Assembly (NCBI RefSeq): GCF_024464595.1
Contig: NZ_JANHAW010000002.1
Coordinates: forward strand, 186,001 to 250,000
Direction of reading: 5' to 3'
DNA: 64,000 nt
Origin: Halobellus litoreus
GTDB taxonomy: Archaea; Halobacteriota; Halobacteria; Halobacteriales; Haloferacaceae
Shown: piece after piece, positions 1 through 5,164 of the stretch
How positions within the stretch are numbered: position 1 is the first letter of the stretch
How the letters are laid out: every line of letters begins with the position of its first letter
Position numbers and translations under genes: made by a program
The notes under the pieces: model-generated
What the model saw: the letters and a program-made list of their open reading frames with translations, nothing else
The model's database searches: none
Told to the model about the DNA's origin: nothing

Positions 1-1394
1 AGGAGTTCATCACTGCGGGCGGGCGGGCCCAGGTCGGCCTGACGACGGCTTCGTTCGCCGTGACCTGGATGTGGGCGGGCGACATCTTGGGCGTGCCCCA
101 GTACGTCGGCATCACCGGCGTCGCGGGCACCTGGATGTACGCCGCCCCCGCCGTGCTCTCCTCGTTCGTGGTCATCCCCTTCGCGCTGCGGATGCGCAAA
201 CTCTTCCCGCAGGGGCTGACGTACAGCGAGTACTTCATCGAGCGATTCGGGAAGTGGGCCCATCTCGTCGTGATCTTCGTGATCCTGTACACGATGGTTC
301 TCGGCGGGGTGATCCAGCTGTTCGTCGGTGGGACGGTCATCGGTGGACTGACCGGCATCGATCCTAACGTCGTGATGGCAGTCTTGATGGGCGTCATCGG
401 GGTCTACATCCTCCTCGGCGGCCTCTGGGGGTCGATGACGACCGACTTCGTCCAGTTCGTCAGCGCACTGGTGTTGACCCTGGTCTTCGTCCCGCTGCTA
501 CTGTTCGAAACTGGCGGACCGGGGCAGGTGTACGAACAGATGGTCGCGAACCTCGGGTCGCAGGCGTCGTCGTTCCTCTCGATGGCGAACCTCAACGCCA
601 TCGAGGGGCTGTTCCTCCCCTACGCGCTCGGACTGGGGGTGTGGGGCGTCGTCTCGCTGGCAACCTGGCAGCGAGTGTTCGCGGTCCGCCGCGACAAGAC
701 CTCCCGGTTCCTCACGATCGGCGGCATCGGCGTGTTCACGACCATCGCGATGTACTCCGTCATCGGGTTCGTCGGCCTCGCGGCGTTCACCGACGTCGCA
801 CCGGGCAACCTCTCGATCGAGGCGCTCGGGCTGATGCCCGACTGGGCGGCGATCCTGTTCCTGCTCGTGGCGCTCATGGTCTTGGGGTCGTCCGTCGACT
901 CGTATCTGACGGCGATCGCCAGCCTCACCTCGCGGGACATCTACTACCGGCACCTCAACACCGGGGCATCGGACGATCAGCAACTCCGGGTCGCCCGCGC
1001 CGCGTCGATCGGGTTCGCGGTCGTCATCTTCGTCGCCACGGTGTTCGCGCTCGGTTCGATCAGCTTCGTGCAACTCCTCCTCATCGGCGGCATCGGCGCG
1101 TCCGCACTCGTGGGTCCGTTCGCGCTCTCACTGTTTTGGAAGAAGACCTCGCAGGCCGGGTTCGTCTCCGGCGTCGTCGTCTCACAGCTCGTGACGGGGT
1201 ACCTGCTCGCGGCGAGTTACGGCGTCGTGGTCAGCACGCCGGCGCTCAAACTGTGGGAGATAATGGCCGTCGGTCACCTGGTGTCGACGGGGCTCACGGC
1301 CGTTCTCAGCGCGGCCGCTCCCGACGACTTCCGGTTCGAGTCCATCGCGCAGGAGGGCTCGAAGATCGCCGCTGACGGAGGTGAGGAGCTATGA
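1..1394 (+). CDS. Solute:sodium symporter (SSS family), 5' end outside window
   Basis: This is a sodium-coupled importer in the cytoplasmic membrane. The reading frame is open from base 3 and continues left of the window, so the GTG at 60 is internal; the residues before it (ITAGGR, VGLTTASFA) are the usual SSS start of the core. About ten further hydrophobic segments follow, with a GLTYSEYF motif and a short cytoplasmic tail after the last one. The substrate cannot be read from sequence; the general look recalls amino acid, urea or carboxylate symporters. The stop overlaps the start of the small membrane gene downstream (ATGA), so the two are co-translated. The nearby NrpR-like regulator, aminotransferase and ureohydrolase suggest a nitrogenous substrate, which is inference. 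Confidence 0.9.
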   Translation, partial: EFITAGGRAQVGLTTASFAVTWMWAGDILGVPQYVGITGVAGTWMYAAPAVLSSFVVIPFALRMRKLFPQGLTYSEYFIERFGKWAHLVVIFVILYTMVLGGVIQLFVGGTVIGGLTGIDPNVVMAVLMGVIGVYILLGGLWGSMTTDFVQFVSALVLTLVFVPLLLFETGGPGQVYEQMVANLGSQASSFLSMANLNAIEGLFLPYALGLGVWGVVSLATWQRVFAVRRDKTSRFLTIGGIGVFTTIAMYSVIGFVGLAAFTDVAPGNLSIEALGLMPDWAAILFLLVALMVLGSSVDSYLTAIASLTSRDIYYRHLNTGASDDQQLRVARAASIGFAVVIFVATVFALGSISFVQLLLIGGIGASALVGPFALSLFWKKTSQAGFVSGVVVSQLVTGYLLAASYGVVVSTPALKLWEIMAVGHLVSTGLTAVLSAAAPDDFRFESIAQEGSKIAADGGEEL

Positions 1395-1621
1395 TGAGCC
1401 AGGGCCTCTTCACCGGGATGATCGTCCTGTTCTGGGTGGCCGAGGCGCTCTTCGGCGCGCTCGTCGTGTACTGGTTCCTCACCCAGGGGTTCGACAGCGA
1501 TCGAGACACCGCCGACACGGGACCGGTCGAACTCGAAGACAGCGCGGAGACGCTGCGATCGCTGGGGCTCTGGGCCGCGTTCTTCGGCGTGATCATCCTT
1601 GGGATCGTCGTCGGCGCGTAG
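1391..1621 (+). CDS. Small two-helix membrane protein, symporter partner
   Basis: A 76-residue protein with two hydrophobic helices (about residues 6-28 and 57-75) separated by an acidic loop. It starts inside the symporter stop codon (ATGA overlap), which implies a fixed stoichiometry with the transporter. Small accessory subunits of this kind are known for several SSS and related permeases, but I do not recognise a named family. Its stop is directly adjacent to the stop of the convergent regulator gene, with no base between. Function as an accessory subunit is inferred from context. Confidence 0.75.
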   Translation: MMSQGLFTGMIVLFWVAEALFGALVVYWFLTQGFDSDRDTADTGPVELEDSAETLRSLGLWAAFFGVIILGIVVGA

Positions 1622-2590
1622 TCACAGCCGTTCGCGGAGCGTCGGCGCCGGCTCGAACGCGGCCCGCGGTCGTACGCCGTCAAGCGATTCCCACTCTTGC
1701 AGCAAACCGTGTTCGTGCAACAGCGCGAACGCCGCCTCGCCGACGCCGCCGTACGTGAGCGAGGCGAACTCCCACCCGGACCGCCCGGCCGGTATCTGGC
1801 CGGTTTCCCGCGGGCGGCGGAAGTCGAGCACGCCGCCGAGTTGATCCCGCGCGGCCGTCGAGAGGTCCCGCGCCTCGTCGAACCGGGTCAGCGGGAACTC
1901 ACGGCTGTCGACGATCAGAATGCCCTCGCGGTCGTCCAAGATCGCTCCGACGTCCGTCCGACCAGCCTCGACGAGCAGGCGTACGACGTCCATCGTCGAC
2001 CCCTCCCCGCTGATGGCGTCGATGTAGCGATCGATTTCGCCGTCGTACTCGACGAGACCCCCGGTGACGAGCCGGGCGTTGATCCCGCGAGAGAGGAGGA
2101 TCCCGTCCAGCGTGATACTCGACGGGACGGCGATTTCCACCTCGGAGTCGGAGTCGGTCTCGATCAGCGAGACGGGAACCGGACCGACGGACGACCGGTG
2201 GAGCGCGGTCAGCAACTCGAACGCGTCGTCGACCCGGTCGGCCGGCACCCGACCGGAGCCGAACACCACTTCGCCCCCGTCCTCGGCCGGGTCGTAGGTG
2301 ACCTCGCTCGTCAGCGTCGCGATCCGTTCGCGGATCCGTTCGAACCGTCCGCTCACGTCCCCGCGCCGGAGTTCCTCGCGGCCCTCCGCCGTCAATCGCC
2401 GCCCCTTTCCGGTGACTTTCTCCGTGAGGTTCTCCTCGTCGAGTTCCGACAGCATCAGACGGATCGTCCGATCCTTGATCGAGTAGCCGCGCTGTTGCAT
2501 CAAATCGACCAGCCGGATGCTCCCGATCGGTTCGTTCTCGCCGATGAGGCGGAGCAGATCGTACCGTCGCCTCTCTCCCCCGGTAGCCAT
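1622..2590 (-). CDS. NrpR-like transcriptional regulator (winged helix plus NrpR domain)
   Basis: A 322-residue protein. Residues 1-70 form a winged-helix domain (RRYDLLRLIGENEPIGSIRL, then a wing rich in charged residues). The remainder, from about residue 85, resembles the NrpR regulatory domain (DUF128), including SLIETDSD, GRTDVGAILDDREG and a glycine-rich end. In methanogens NrpR represses nitrogen-assimilation genes and is released by 2-oxoglutarate. This protein has only one regulatory domain. A TATA-like TTTTTATTT lies about 28 bases upstream of the ATG, so the message is probably leaderless. It sits between the symporter unit and the divergent aminotransferase-ureohydrolase pair, whose promoter carries an NrpR-type palindrome. 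Confidence 0.82.
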   Translation of the reverse strand: MATGGERRRYDLLRLIGENEPIGSIRLVDLMQQRGYSIKDRTIRLMLSELDEENLTEKVTGKGRRLTAEGREELRRGDVSGRFERIRERIATLTSEVTYDPAEDGGEVVFGSGRVPADRVDDAFELLTALHRSSVGPVPVSLIETDSDSEVEIAVPSSITLDGILLSRGINARLVTGGLVEYDGEIDRYIDAISGEGSTMDVVRLLVEAGRTDVGAILDDREGILIVDSREFPLTRFDEARDLSTAARDQLGGVLDFRRPRETGQIPAGRSGWEFASLTYGGVGEAAFALLHEHGLLQEWESLDGVRPRAAFEPAPTLRERL

Positions 2591-2739
2591 TGCTTACCCG
2601 AAGCCACGACGGGCCCAAATAAAAAGCCTCGACAACCGCGCCGACAAGCGGCAATAAGTTACCATATCTCGATCCCATCAGTCTGCCACGTGGAGGCACG
2701 CCGAAAGTCGGTATTCAGATTCACTGCCCCTTTTTCAGG

Positions 2740-2771
2740 TGCGTTCGATCACCTCAAGATTTTTGAACGCA
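2740..2771. promoter_or_regulatory. Long-spaced inverted repeat TGCGTTC...GAACGCA
   Basis: A perfect 7-base inverted repeat, TGCGTTC and GAACGCA, separated by 18 bases in the divergent promoter region. It lies upstream of the aminotransferase TATA-like element. It could be an activator or second repressor site; no protein is assigned. Confidence 0.4.
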
Positions 2772-2794: not shown

Positions 2795-2808
2795 GGAATA
2801 CGGGTTCC
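2795..2808. promoter_or_regulatory. Candidate NrpR operator GGAA-N6-TTCC
   Basis: GGAATACGGGTTCC is an exact fit to the GGAA-N6-TTCC palindrome described for NrpR in methanogens. It lies 10 bases before the aminotransferase ATG and just after a TATA-like CAATTAAGG, that is, over the expected transcription start, a position suited to repression. The adjacent divergent gene encodes an NrpR-like protein. Binding is inferred. Confidence 0.6.
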
Positions 2809-2817
2809 ATATCCATT

Positions 2818-4149
2818 ATGTCACAGCAAACAGACTCACCACCGTCGAACGAGCGGATCGAAGCGCAGTACGACGAGTATCTGATGCCCATCTGGAAGAA
2901 TCTCAACGTCCCGATCAAGCGTGCCTCCGGGAGCACGGTCGAGGACTTCGAGGGCAACGAGTACCTCGACGTGTTCTCGGGAATCTCGGTGACCAACGCG
3001 GGCCACAACAACGAGGCCGTCGTCGAGGCGGCCAAGGCGCAGCTCGACGAGTTCGTCCACGGGTGCACGTACGTGCACCCGAACCAGCCGGCCGCGGCGC
3101 TGGCCGAGCGACTCGCGGAAGTCACGCCCGGCGACCTCCAGAAGACGTTCTTCTGTAACTCCGGCACGGAGGCGGTCGAGGGCGCGATCAAACTCGCACG
3201 GAAGTACACCGGCTCGAAGGAGGTGCTGGCTCTGGAGATGTCGTTCCACGGTCGCACCCTCGGGTCGCTGGCGCTGACCGGCAACAAGTCCTACAAGGCT
3301 GATATGGCCCCGACGATCAACGACGTCGCACACGTCGCGCCGCCGTACGCCTACCGCTGTCAGCTGTGCGACGGCGGGCCGTGTTCGTGCGCCTGCGCGG
3401 AGGACGTCGAACGCGTGATCGACACCCACACCGCCGGCGACCTGGCGGCGGTCGTCGTCGAGCCCGTGATGGGCGAGGGCGGAATCATCGTTCCGCCGGA
3501 GGGGTGGCTCTCTCGCGTCAAGGAGATCGCGCACGAGCACGGCGCGCTCCTCGTCGTCGACGAGGTGCAGGCCGGATACGGCCGGACCGGCGAGATGTGG
3601 GCCTCGGACCACTTCGACGTGGTCCCCGACATTATGCCGCAGGCGAAGGGCATCGCGAACGGCCTCCCGCTCGGCGCGTTCACGGCCAGCGCTGAGGTCG
3701 CTGACGCGTTCGAGGCCGGCGATCACCTGTCGACGTTCGGCGGGAACCCCGTCGCGTGCGCCGCGGCGCTGGCGACGATCGACGAACTCGAGGGCGGCTT
3801 GATCGAGAACGCGAGCGAGCAGGGCGCGTGGCTGAGCGACCGACTCGCGGAACTGGAGACGGAGTACGACGTCGTCGGCGACGCGCGGGGACTGGGGCTG
3901 ATGCAGGGGATCGAACTGGTCGACCCCGACGAGACTGGGCCGATGGGCGTCGCGCCCGCCCCGGACGCCGAGCTGGCGAAGTCGGTCGGTACGCACCTCA
4001 GAGAACAGGGGATCATCATCGGCGTCGGCGGGTTCCACAAGAACGTGATGCGATTCCAGCCGCCGCTGTCGATCTCCCGCGACCAACTCGAACGCGCCGT
4101 CGAGGGGCTCCGGACGGCCATCGAGGCGGCTCGCGACGGGGGCGCGTGA
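2818..4149 (+). CDS. Class III (omega) aminotransferase, PLP-dependent
   Basis: A 443-residue fold-type I enzyme of the GABA/ornithine/beta-alanine aminotransferase group. The cofactor-binding residues are visible: NSGTEAVEGA (about 114-123), DEVQ (248-251) and the Schiff-base lysine K277 in PQAKGIANG. An unusual cysteine cluster sits at residues 181-193 (C181, C184, C189, C191, C193), in a loop that is variable in the family. The downstream ureohydrolase begins one base after the stop, so the products are coupled. The likely role is transamination of an omega-amino product such as GABA, beta-alanine or putrescine released by the ureohydrolase. Exact substrate unknown. Confidence 0.88.
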   Translation: MSQQTDSPPSNERIEAQYDEYLMPIWKNLNVPIKRASGSTVEDFEGNEYLDVFSGISVTNAGHNNEAVVEAAKAQLDEFVHGCTYVHPNQPAAALAERLAEVTPGDLQKTFFCNSGTEAVEGAIKLARKYTGSKEVLALEMSFHGRTLGSLALTGNKSYKADMAPTINDVAHVAPPYAYRCQLCDGGPCSCACAEDVERVIDTHTAGDLAAVVVEPVMGEGGIIVPPEGWLSRVKEIAHEHGALLVVDEVQAGYGRTGEMWASDHFDVVPDIMPQAKGIANGLPLGAFTASAEVADAFEAGDHLSTFGGNPVACAAALATIDELEGGLIENASEQGAWLSDRLAELETEYDVVGDARGLGLMQGIELVDPDETGPMGVAPAPDAELAKSVGTHLREQGIIIGVGGFHKNVMRFQPPLSISRDQLERAVEGLRTAIEAARDGGA

Positions 4150-4150
4150 G

Positions 4151-5164
4151 ATGGAGCAAGCGCCGGGCACCAGCCGCGCCGCCGCGTTCCGCGAATCGAA
4201 CCCGGGGAGCGCGGTCGAACTCCCGTACGAGGGCTTCGACACGTTCCTGAAGCGCGAGATCGCCGACGTCGAGGACGTCGCCGGCGCGGACGCCGCCGTC
4301 CTCGGCGCCCCGTACGACGGCGCGGTCAGCAACCGGCCGGGGACGCGCTACGGCCCCCGAGCCCTGCGCCGCGCCAGCGGGTGGCTGGCGTACCTCTCGG
4401 GGTACAAGGGCGGGTTGACGAACGTCCGGACCGGCCGCGAGGTCGACTTCGGCGCGCTCGAGCTGGTCGACTGCGGCGACGTCCCCGTCTTTCCGATGGA
4501 CCGCGAGACGACGGCGGAGTCCATCTCCGCGCACGTCGCGACCGTGGCCGACCAGGGCGTGATGCCGGTCCTCCTCGGCGGCGACCACTACTGCACGTTC
4601 CCGTCGTTCAGGGGGTTCGCCGAGGGGAGCGACCACGAGACCGTCGGACTCGTCCAGATCGACGCCCACACCGATACGGTGGCCGAGAGCGCCGTCCTGG
4701 GCGAGCACTTCCACGGCTCTTCGACCCACCACATCGCCGAGTCGCCGCATACCGACTACGAGCACGTCTCGCAGGTCGGCATCCGCGGCTACGAGTCGCC
4801 CGGCTTCTTCGAGTTCGCCGAGGAGAGCGGGCTGTCGCTGTTCACCGTCCGCGACATCGAGACGCGCGGGATCCGGGACGTCGTCCGGGAGGCCATCACT
4901 GACGCGGCGGCCGACGCCGACGCCGTCTACGTCACCTTCGACATCGACTCGGTCGACCCGTCGGTCGCCCCGGGCACCGGCACCCCCGAACCCGGCGGAC
5001 TGAGCGCGTCGCAGGCGCTGACCGTGATGGAAACTCTCGGCGAGCACGACTCGGTGGGGGCCGTCGATCTGATGGAAGTCTCCCCGCCGCTCGATCCGAC
5101 CGATAACACCTCACGACTGGGCGCGTACCTGCTGACGACGCTGCTCGAACAGCAGTTCGCGTAG
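4151..5164 (+). CDS. Agmatinase/arginase-family ureohydrolase
   Basis: A 337-residue manganese ureohydrolase. The metal ligands are present: H146 in LLGGDH, D171, H173 and D175 in DAHTDT, and D264 and D266 in FDIDSVDP. The usual GGDHS motif reads GGDHY here. Family members cleave agmatine, guanidinobutyrate, guanidinopropionate or related compounds to an amine plus urea; the residues visible do not decide between them. The gene follows the aminotransferase with one base between, so hydrolysis and transamination are probably successive steps. No urease gene is in the window. Confidence 0.85.
   Translation: MEQAPGTSRAAAFRESNPGSAVELPYEGFDTFLKREIADVEDVAGADAAVLGAPYDGAVSNRPGTRYGPRALRRASGWLAYLSGYKGGLTNVRTGREVDFGALELVDCGDVPVFPMDRETTAESISAHVATVADQGVMPVLLGGDHYCTFPSFRGFAEGSDHETVGLVQIDAHTDTVAESAVLGEHFHGSSTHHIAESPHTDYEHVSQVGIRGYESPGFFEFAEESGLSLFTVRDIETRGIRDVVREAITDAAADADAVYVTFDIDSVDPSVAPGTGTPEPGGLSASQALTVMETLGEHDSVGAVDLMEVSPPLDPTDNTSRLGAYLLTTLLEQQFA

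Follow-up and report, generated by a model that had tools for sequence, protein, structure and literature searches.

A candidate operator of an NrpR-like regulator at a putative guanidino/polyamine catabolism locus of Halobellus litoreus

Organization of the locus

The stretch of DNA analysed here, referred to as the window, comprises 64,000 nt of Halobellus litoreus (assembly GCF_024464595.1, contig NZ_JANHAW010000002.1, positions 186,001-250,000 of the forward strand). The features concerned are listed below, the last two, in contig coordinates, being located before the window:

1..1394, plus strand: sodium:solute symporter gene, 3' part, its start lying before the window (family assignment)
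1391..1621, plus strand: small membrane protein, staying beside the symporter in relatives
1622..2590, minus strand: NrpR-like regulator of 322 aa, winged helix (HTH_12) and one NRD (Pfam, predicted structure)
2617..2625, minus strand: likely nrpR TATA box, reading AAATAAAAA on the plus strand, 27-35 bp upstream of the ATG (sequence and inference)
2650..2663, no strand: O_nrpR, second candidate operator, GGCAATAAGTTACC, matrix score 15.7, 145 bp from O_AT
2753..2767, plus strand: likely BRE/TATA of the aminotransferase promoter, CTCAAGATTTTTGAA (sequence; A+T-rich peak in aligned promoters)
2795..2808, no strand: O_AT, putative operator, GGAATACGGGTTCC, weight-matrix score 19.2 (pattern match, conservation in orthologous loci)
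2818..4149, plus strand: class-III aminotransferase of the GABA/putrescine/acetylornithine aminotransferase family (family assignment)
4151..5164, plus strand: ureohydrolase of the agmatinase/guanidinobutyrase group, in the same operon as the aminotransferase (family assignment)
C2:185835: O_SSF, GGTAATACATTACC, in the symporter promoter, 166 bp before the window (weight matrix)
C2:185091: O_AOR, GGCATAGATATGCC, before the aldehyde ferredoxin oxidoreductase gene (weight matrix)

The sequence-only reading, which had reported an exact GGAA-N6-TTCC at 2795-2808 adjoining a divergent NrpR-like gene, was right on both counts: the palindrome is present in the sequence, and the gene at 1622-2590 on the minus strand encodes a protein matching both HTH_12 and NRD. 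The symporter gene is convergent with nrpR, the small membrane protein (1391..1621) being a probable partner of the symporter. The aldehyde ferredoxin oxidoreductase gene with its own site, O_AOR, belongs to the same locus, albeit upstream of the window. Between it and the symporter gene lies a putative cyclase-family (PF04199) gene on the minus strand (C2:185114-185779; L034:9114-9779), whose promoter region has a GGTGGCA half-site beside the start codon.

Concerning the aminotransferase gene, it is shortened or lost in several relatives, with the operator, the gene start and a short piece of the N-terminal part still standing before an intact ureohydrolase gene. The remnant in L049 (5415-5693, minus strand) counts only about 93 residues; others are found in L048 around 6295 and as short frames downstream of the operator in L037, L056, L058, L060 and L061.

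The palindrome and its position

O_AT is situated 9 bp upstream of the aminotransferase ATG (2818) and may be extended to TGGAA-N6-TTCCA (2794-2809). It should be pointed out that the bare GGAA-N6-TTCC occurs at chance frequency—two copies in the window with 0.82 expected, two being reached in 18 of 100 shuffles, and 56 copies over the whole genome of 3.86 Mb—so the motif count alone proves nothing and was rejected as evidence; the significance of O_AT comes from its position and conservation. The second copy in the window, at 3481-3494, lies within the aminotransferase coding sequence, where the codons of a GGIIVPP stretch spell the match, and was not retained as an operator. This palindrome, with the extended form GGCGGAA-N6-TTCCGCC and weaker counterparts in L050 and L071, probably reflects coding constraint, an intragenic operator being possible.

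The palindrome had also been placed over the expected transcription start, a claim that agrees with the 62 promoters aligned on the operator, in which an A+T-rich, TATA-like peak is seen 25-35 bp upstream, with A/G-rich columns just before it, in agreement with a BRE followed by a TATA box. The corresponding TATA-like element of the window is located at about 2759-2766. This spacing indicates that the operator begins close to the transcription start, a common location for archaeal repressor sites.

The NrpR-like protein

The regulator is encoded by the sole NRD (PF01995) gene of the genome and is, by its architecture of one HTH and one NRD, of the NrpRI type. Its matches to HTH_12 (PF08461; E=1.1e-10, 41.7 bits, cut-off 21.4) and to the NRD (NRD1_2, PF01995; E=2.6e-26, 92.8 bits, cut-off 25) are both well above the thresholds. 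The haloarchaeal proteins share 24-30% identity overall with those of methanogens, including the R-x-[VI]-R pattern of the DNA-contact helix and, between the haloarchaeal proteins and methanogen NrpRI, the winged-helix residues R41, R44, L47, L50, D51, T56, K58, G63, R64 and T67.

The AlphaFold model (pLDDT 91.2) superimposes on the NRD of MJ0159 (3nek) with a Z of 23.4 and 2.6 A over 219 residues, at 19% identity in the aligned part, while the best fit of its winged helix is DNA-bound CggR (0.8 A over 72 residues). Within the NRD, residues S158, D162, G163, G169, R230 and P233 are retained. The column of S157, belonging to the conserved stretch [CS]-S-I-T-x-D-G, contains serine in 41 of 41 haloarchaeal rows versus cysteine in 9 of 9 methanogen NrpRI rows, a difference that is possibly tied to effector specificity.

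Conservation of the site across haloarchaeal loci

A locus search with the single protein gave only two loci; the NrpR-like loci were therefore gathered by whole-genome searches of haloarchaea. An NrpR-family protein is present in 46 of 392 genomes, i.e. in about one of eight, and the genes fall into two sets. The first one, NrpR1, includes the protein of the window and usually has the ureohydrolase gene as a neighbour; the second one, NrpR2, forms one clade with full support, its gene following that of a second class-III aminotransferase within one operon. In L054, L056, L057 and L058, two NrpR-like genes face each other at about 5 kb, enclosing in L056 and L057 a polyamine-type ABC transporter.

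In the 300 bp upstream of the NrpR1 genes, towards the divergent gene, GG[A/C]A-N6-T[T/G]CC was found in 30 of 32 promoters (200 dinucleotide shuffles: mean 0.48, maximum 3), the same halves at other spacers, from 2 to 12, occurring in at most three loci. The exact GGAA-N6-TTCC lies upstream of all ten NrpR2 operons. Among genomes fetched after the pattern had been fixed, the site was present in 13 of 14 NrpR1 and 7 of 7 NrpR2 promoters, the fourteenth NrpR1 promoter having GGCA-N6-TACC. The palindrome, whose absence from orthologous promoters had been set as a refutation test of the sequence-only reading, is thus present, pooled, in 43 of 46 NrpR1 and 17 of 17 NrpR2 promoters, with a spacer of almost always six, these counts not being fully independent since several promoters come from close relatives. 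As for the two of the 32 NrpR1 loci with no strict match in the region searched, a site immediately precedes the aminotransferase gene in L052, and L044 has GGTA-N6-TTCC. A pattern-free search for spaced trimer pairs ranked TGG-N10-CCA at the top for NrpR1 (36/46) and GGA-N8-TCC for NrpR2 (17/17).

The idea of a methanogen-type operator conserved in haloarchaea holds for the core and the spacer, but not for the exact spelling, GGAA/TTCC being in the minority in the orthologue group of the window, which more often has GGCA/TGCC and also includes mixed sites. Since haloarchaeal sites comprise GGAA/TTCC, GGTA/TACC, GGCA/TGCC and mixed forms, what they share is a frame of GG-N-A and T-N-CC with six bases in between. 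The paralogues differ in their flanks, GTGG...CCAC versus CCGGAAG...CTTCCGG. In L056 and L057, which possess both paralogues, sites of the NrpR1 type precede the ureohydrolase side and the polyamine-type ABC transporter, and those of the NrpR2 type, CCGGAAG-N4-CTTCCGG, precede the second aminotransferase.

Co-occurrence of the regulator and the site

A close orthologue of the aminotransferase is present in 60 of the 392 genomes. With a site called at an NrpR1 weight-matrix score of at least 12, it was found in 20 of 21 aminotransferase promoters of NrpR-bearing loci, part of which had trained the matrix. None of the 42 promoters from genomes without any NRD gene reached 12 or contained the core, nor did any of the four unlinked aminotransferase paralogues in NrpR-bearing genomes have a site. 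The association between regulator and site gives a Fisher p = 1.6e-15, a value overstating independence, the species being related. A genome of the same genus (G216), with an 80% identical aminotransferase, has neither the regulator nor the site.

Four sites and a probably local regulon

The weight matrix trained on NrpR1 sites revealed four sites at the locus, preceding four genes or operons, namely the aminotransferase-ureohydrolase operon, nrpR, the symporter and the aldehyde oxidoreductase. The complete set is also seen in L002, L003, L047, L049, L050 and L075, O_nrpR of L002 being weak (11.7). O_nrpR, absent from the sequence-only reading, shares the intergenic region with O_AT and has counterparts in the same six loci and L080; its distance to O_AT is 141-146 bp in the eight loci having both. 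Since the likely TATA box of nrpR lies between O_nrpR and the gene, the role of this site may be more auxiliary than autoregulatory. Elsewhere in the window, beyond the aminotransferase gene and the intergenic region before it, no matrix score exceeds 11.7.

A global nitrogen repressor of the NrpR type would be defined by a regulon including glnA and glnK-amtB (and nif). No site was detected near the two glnA-family and two amtB genes of the same genome, so the regulator looks local rather than a global nitrogen regulator. Concerning wider searches, TGGMA-N6-TKCCA matches the genome four times, three of these matches falling within long open frames, and its reversed control is commoner (11 versus 4 matches); no wider regulon is therefore claimed. 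The pattern GGTGGMA-N6-TNCC, with 14 matches versus 10 for the control and only two borderline scores (13.4 and 13.5) off the locus, was likewise rejected.

Interpretation

Judged from sequence, the best reading of the protein is that of an NrpR-family repressor of guanidino and polyamine uptake and catabolism, and the palindrome is very probably the operator through which it would repress the neighbouring cluster until released by an effector. A dimer of the 322-aa protein would bind GGNA-N6-TNCC at the transcription start via the winged helix and block transcription of the aminotransferase and ureohydrolase, the symporter and the aldehyde oxidoreductase; an effector binding the NRD would make the protein leave the DNA. 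This effector may be 2-oxoglutarate signalling nitrogen shortage, by homology, or, given that the regulon is local, a pathway compound. Once derepressed, the cluster would allow the cell to use guanidino or polyamine compounds as nitrogen sources, the order suggested by the families being import by the symporter or a polyamine-type ABC transporter, release of urea by the ureohydrolase, transamination and aldehyde oxidation.

Several observations weigh against this reading of a neighbouring repressor and its operator, i.e. the minority spelling in the orthologue group of the window, the low identity between the haloarchaeal and methanogen proteins and the fact that O_nrpR is separated from nrpR by the likely TATA box of that gene. 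The motif, moreover, is not diagnostic alone: GGAA-N6-TTCC has also been published for a Caulobacter myo-inositol module, and if other families may use it, the palindrome could belong to another regulator, the NrpR-like gene being a mere neighbour. That is very unlikely, the site being gone where the regulator is gone (0/42), NrpR2 having a flanking code of its own before its own operon and the core being that of methanogen NrpR. Even less credit, practically none, can be given to a chance palindrome in a GC-rich promoter; it would suit the chance frequency of the bare motif in window and genome, but it is refuted by the comparative counts, in which both position and conservation stand out.

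The alternative deserving serious attention, its probability only a little short of even, concerns the signal and not the site: the protein would bind the palindrome, but sense a pathway compound—an amine, a guanidino compound or an aldehyde—instead of 2-oxoglutarate, being a catabolic repressor on an NrpR scaffold. The local regulon, with glnA and amtB loci devoid of sites and the extended pattern recurring only in long open frames, argues for it, as do the paralogues, each beside its own catabolic genes with its own operator flanks, and the serine at position 157. On the other hand, the protein keeps the fold of the NRD together with many of its residues, and the aminotransferase reaction probably uses 2-oxoglutarate, so that a 2-oxoglutarate signal would also be sensible.

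In evolutionary terms, sequence comparison suggests that an ancient protein-DNA pairing has been reused as a local switch. A more detailed scenario, held tentatively and as somewhat less probable than its opposite, is that of a haloarchaeal NrpR-like lineage whose duplicated members became tied each to a local catabolic cluster, keeping the methanogen operator frame, with sites told apart by the third base and the flanks, and the effector switched from 2-oxoglutarate to a pathway compound.

Comparison with the NrpR systems of methanogens

The NrpR-type master regulator was stated in 2019 not to be conserved in haloarchaea (PMC6801745), whereas the proteins described here occur in 46 of 392 haloarchaeal genomes. 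The NRD family was not found in Haloferax volcanii, included as control rows of the genome searches. No paper describing haloarchaeal NrpR-like regulators was found, subscription journals lying mostly outside the search. Although the proteins are only 24-30% identical, the methanogen core is maintained in the presumed operator; seldom can a transcription factor and its presumed DNA code be followed together from one archaeal group to a distant one, here with two paralogues of different flanks. The case offers a direct way of finding out which came first, the global nitrogen sensor or the local catabolic switch.

At the level of sequence, the haloarchaeal system has the winged helix, the NRD and GGNA-N6-TNCC at promoters that characterize the NrpR family. 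Autoregulation of NrpR is not expected in methanogens, and no consistent site was seen upstream of their NrpRI genes; the methanogen operators compared here are the published ones. M. maripaludis NrpR contains two NRDs, unlike the haloarchaeal protein with one NRD and 322 aa, and acts on nif, glnA and glnK-amtB, unlike the haloarchaeal regulon of one catabolic cluster. Both have a winged helix and the NRD family, as well as the core GGAA-N6-TTCC, the M. maripaludis operator being GGAAN6TTCC (PMC2723118), and both have more than one operator per control region, the nif promoter of M. maripaludis having two according to the title of Lie et al. 2005 (cited in PMC2723118).

Most methanogen genomes searched contain two NRD genes. 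Unlike M. mazei NrpRI, the protein from H. litoreus has no NrpRII partner, i.e. no second NRD protein without HTH, its genome possessing a single NRD gene. It shares the NRD fold with MJ0159 (3nek), a chain covering only an NRD. With M. mazei NrpRI it has in common the architecture of HTH and one NRD in about 320-340 aa, and O_SSF (GGTAATACATTACC) is spelled GGTA-N6-TACC, identically to an M. mazei NrpRI operator (PMC3177094).
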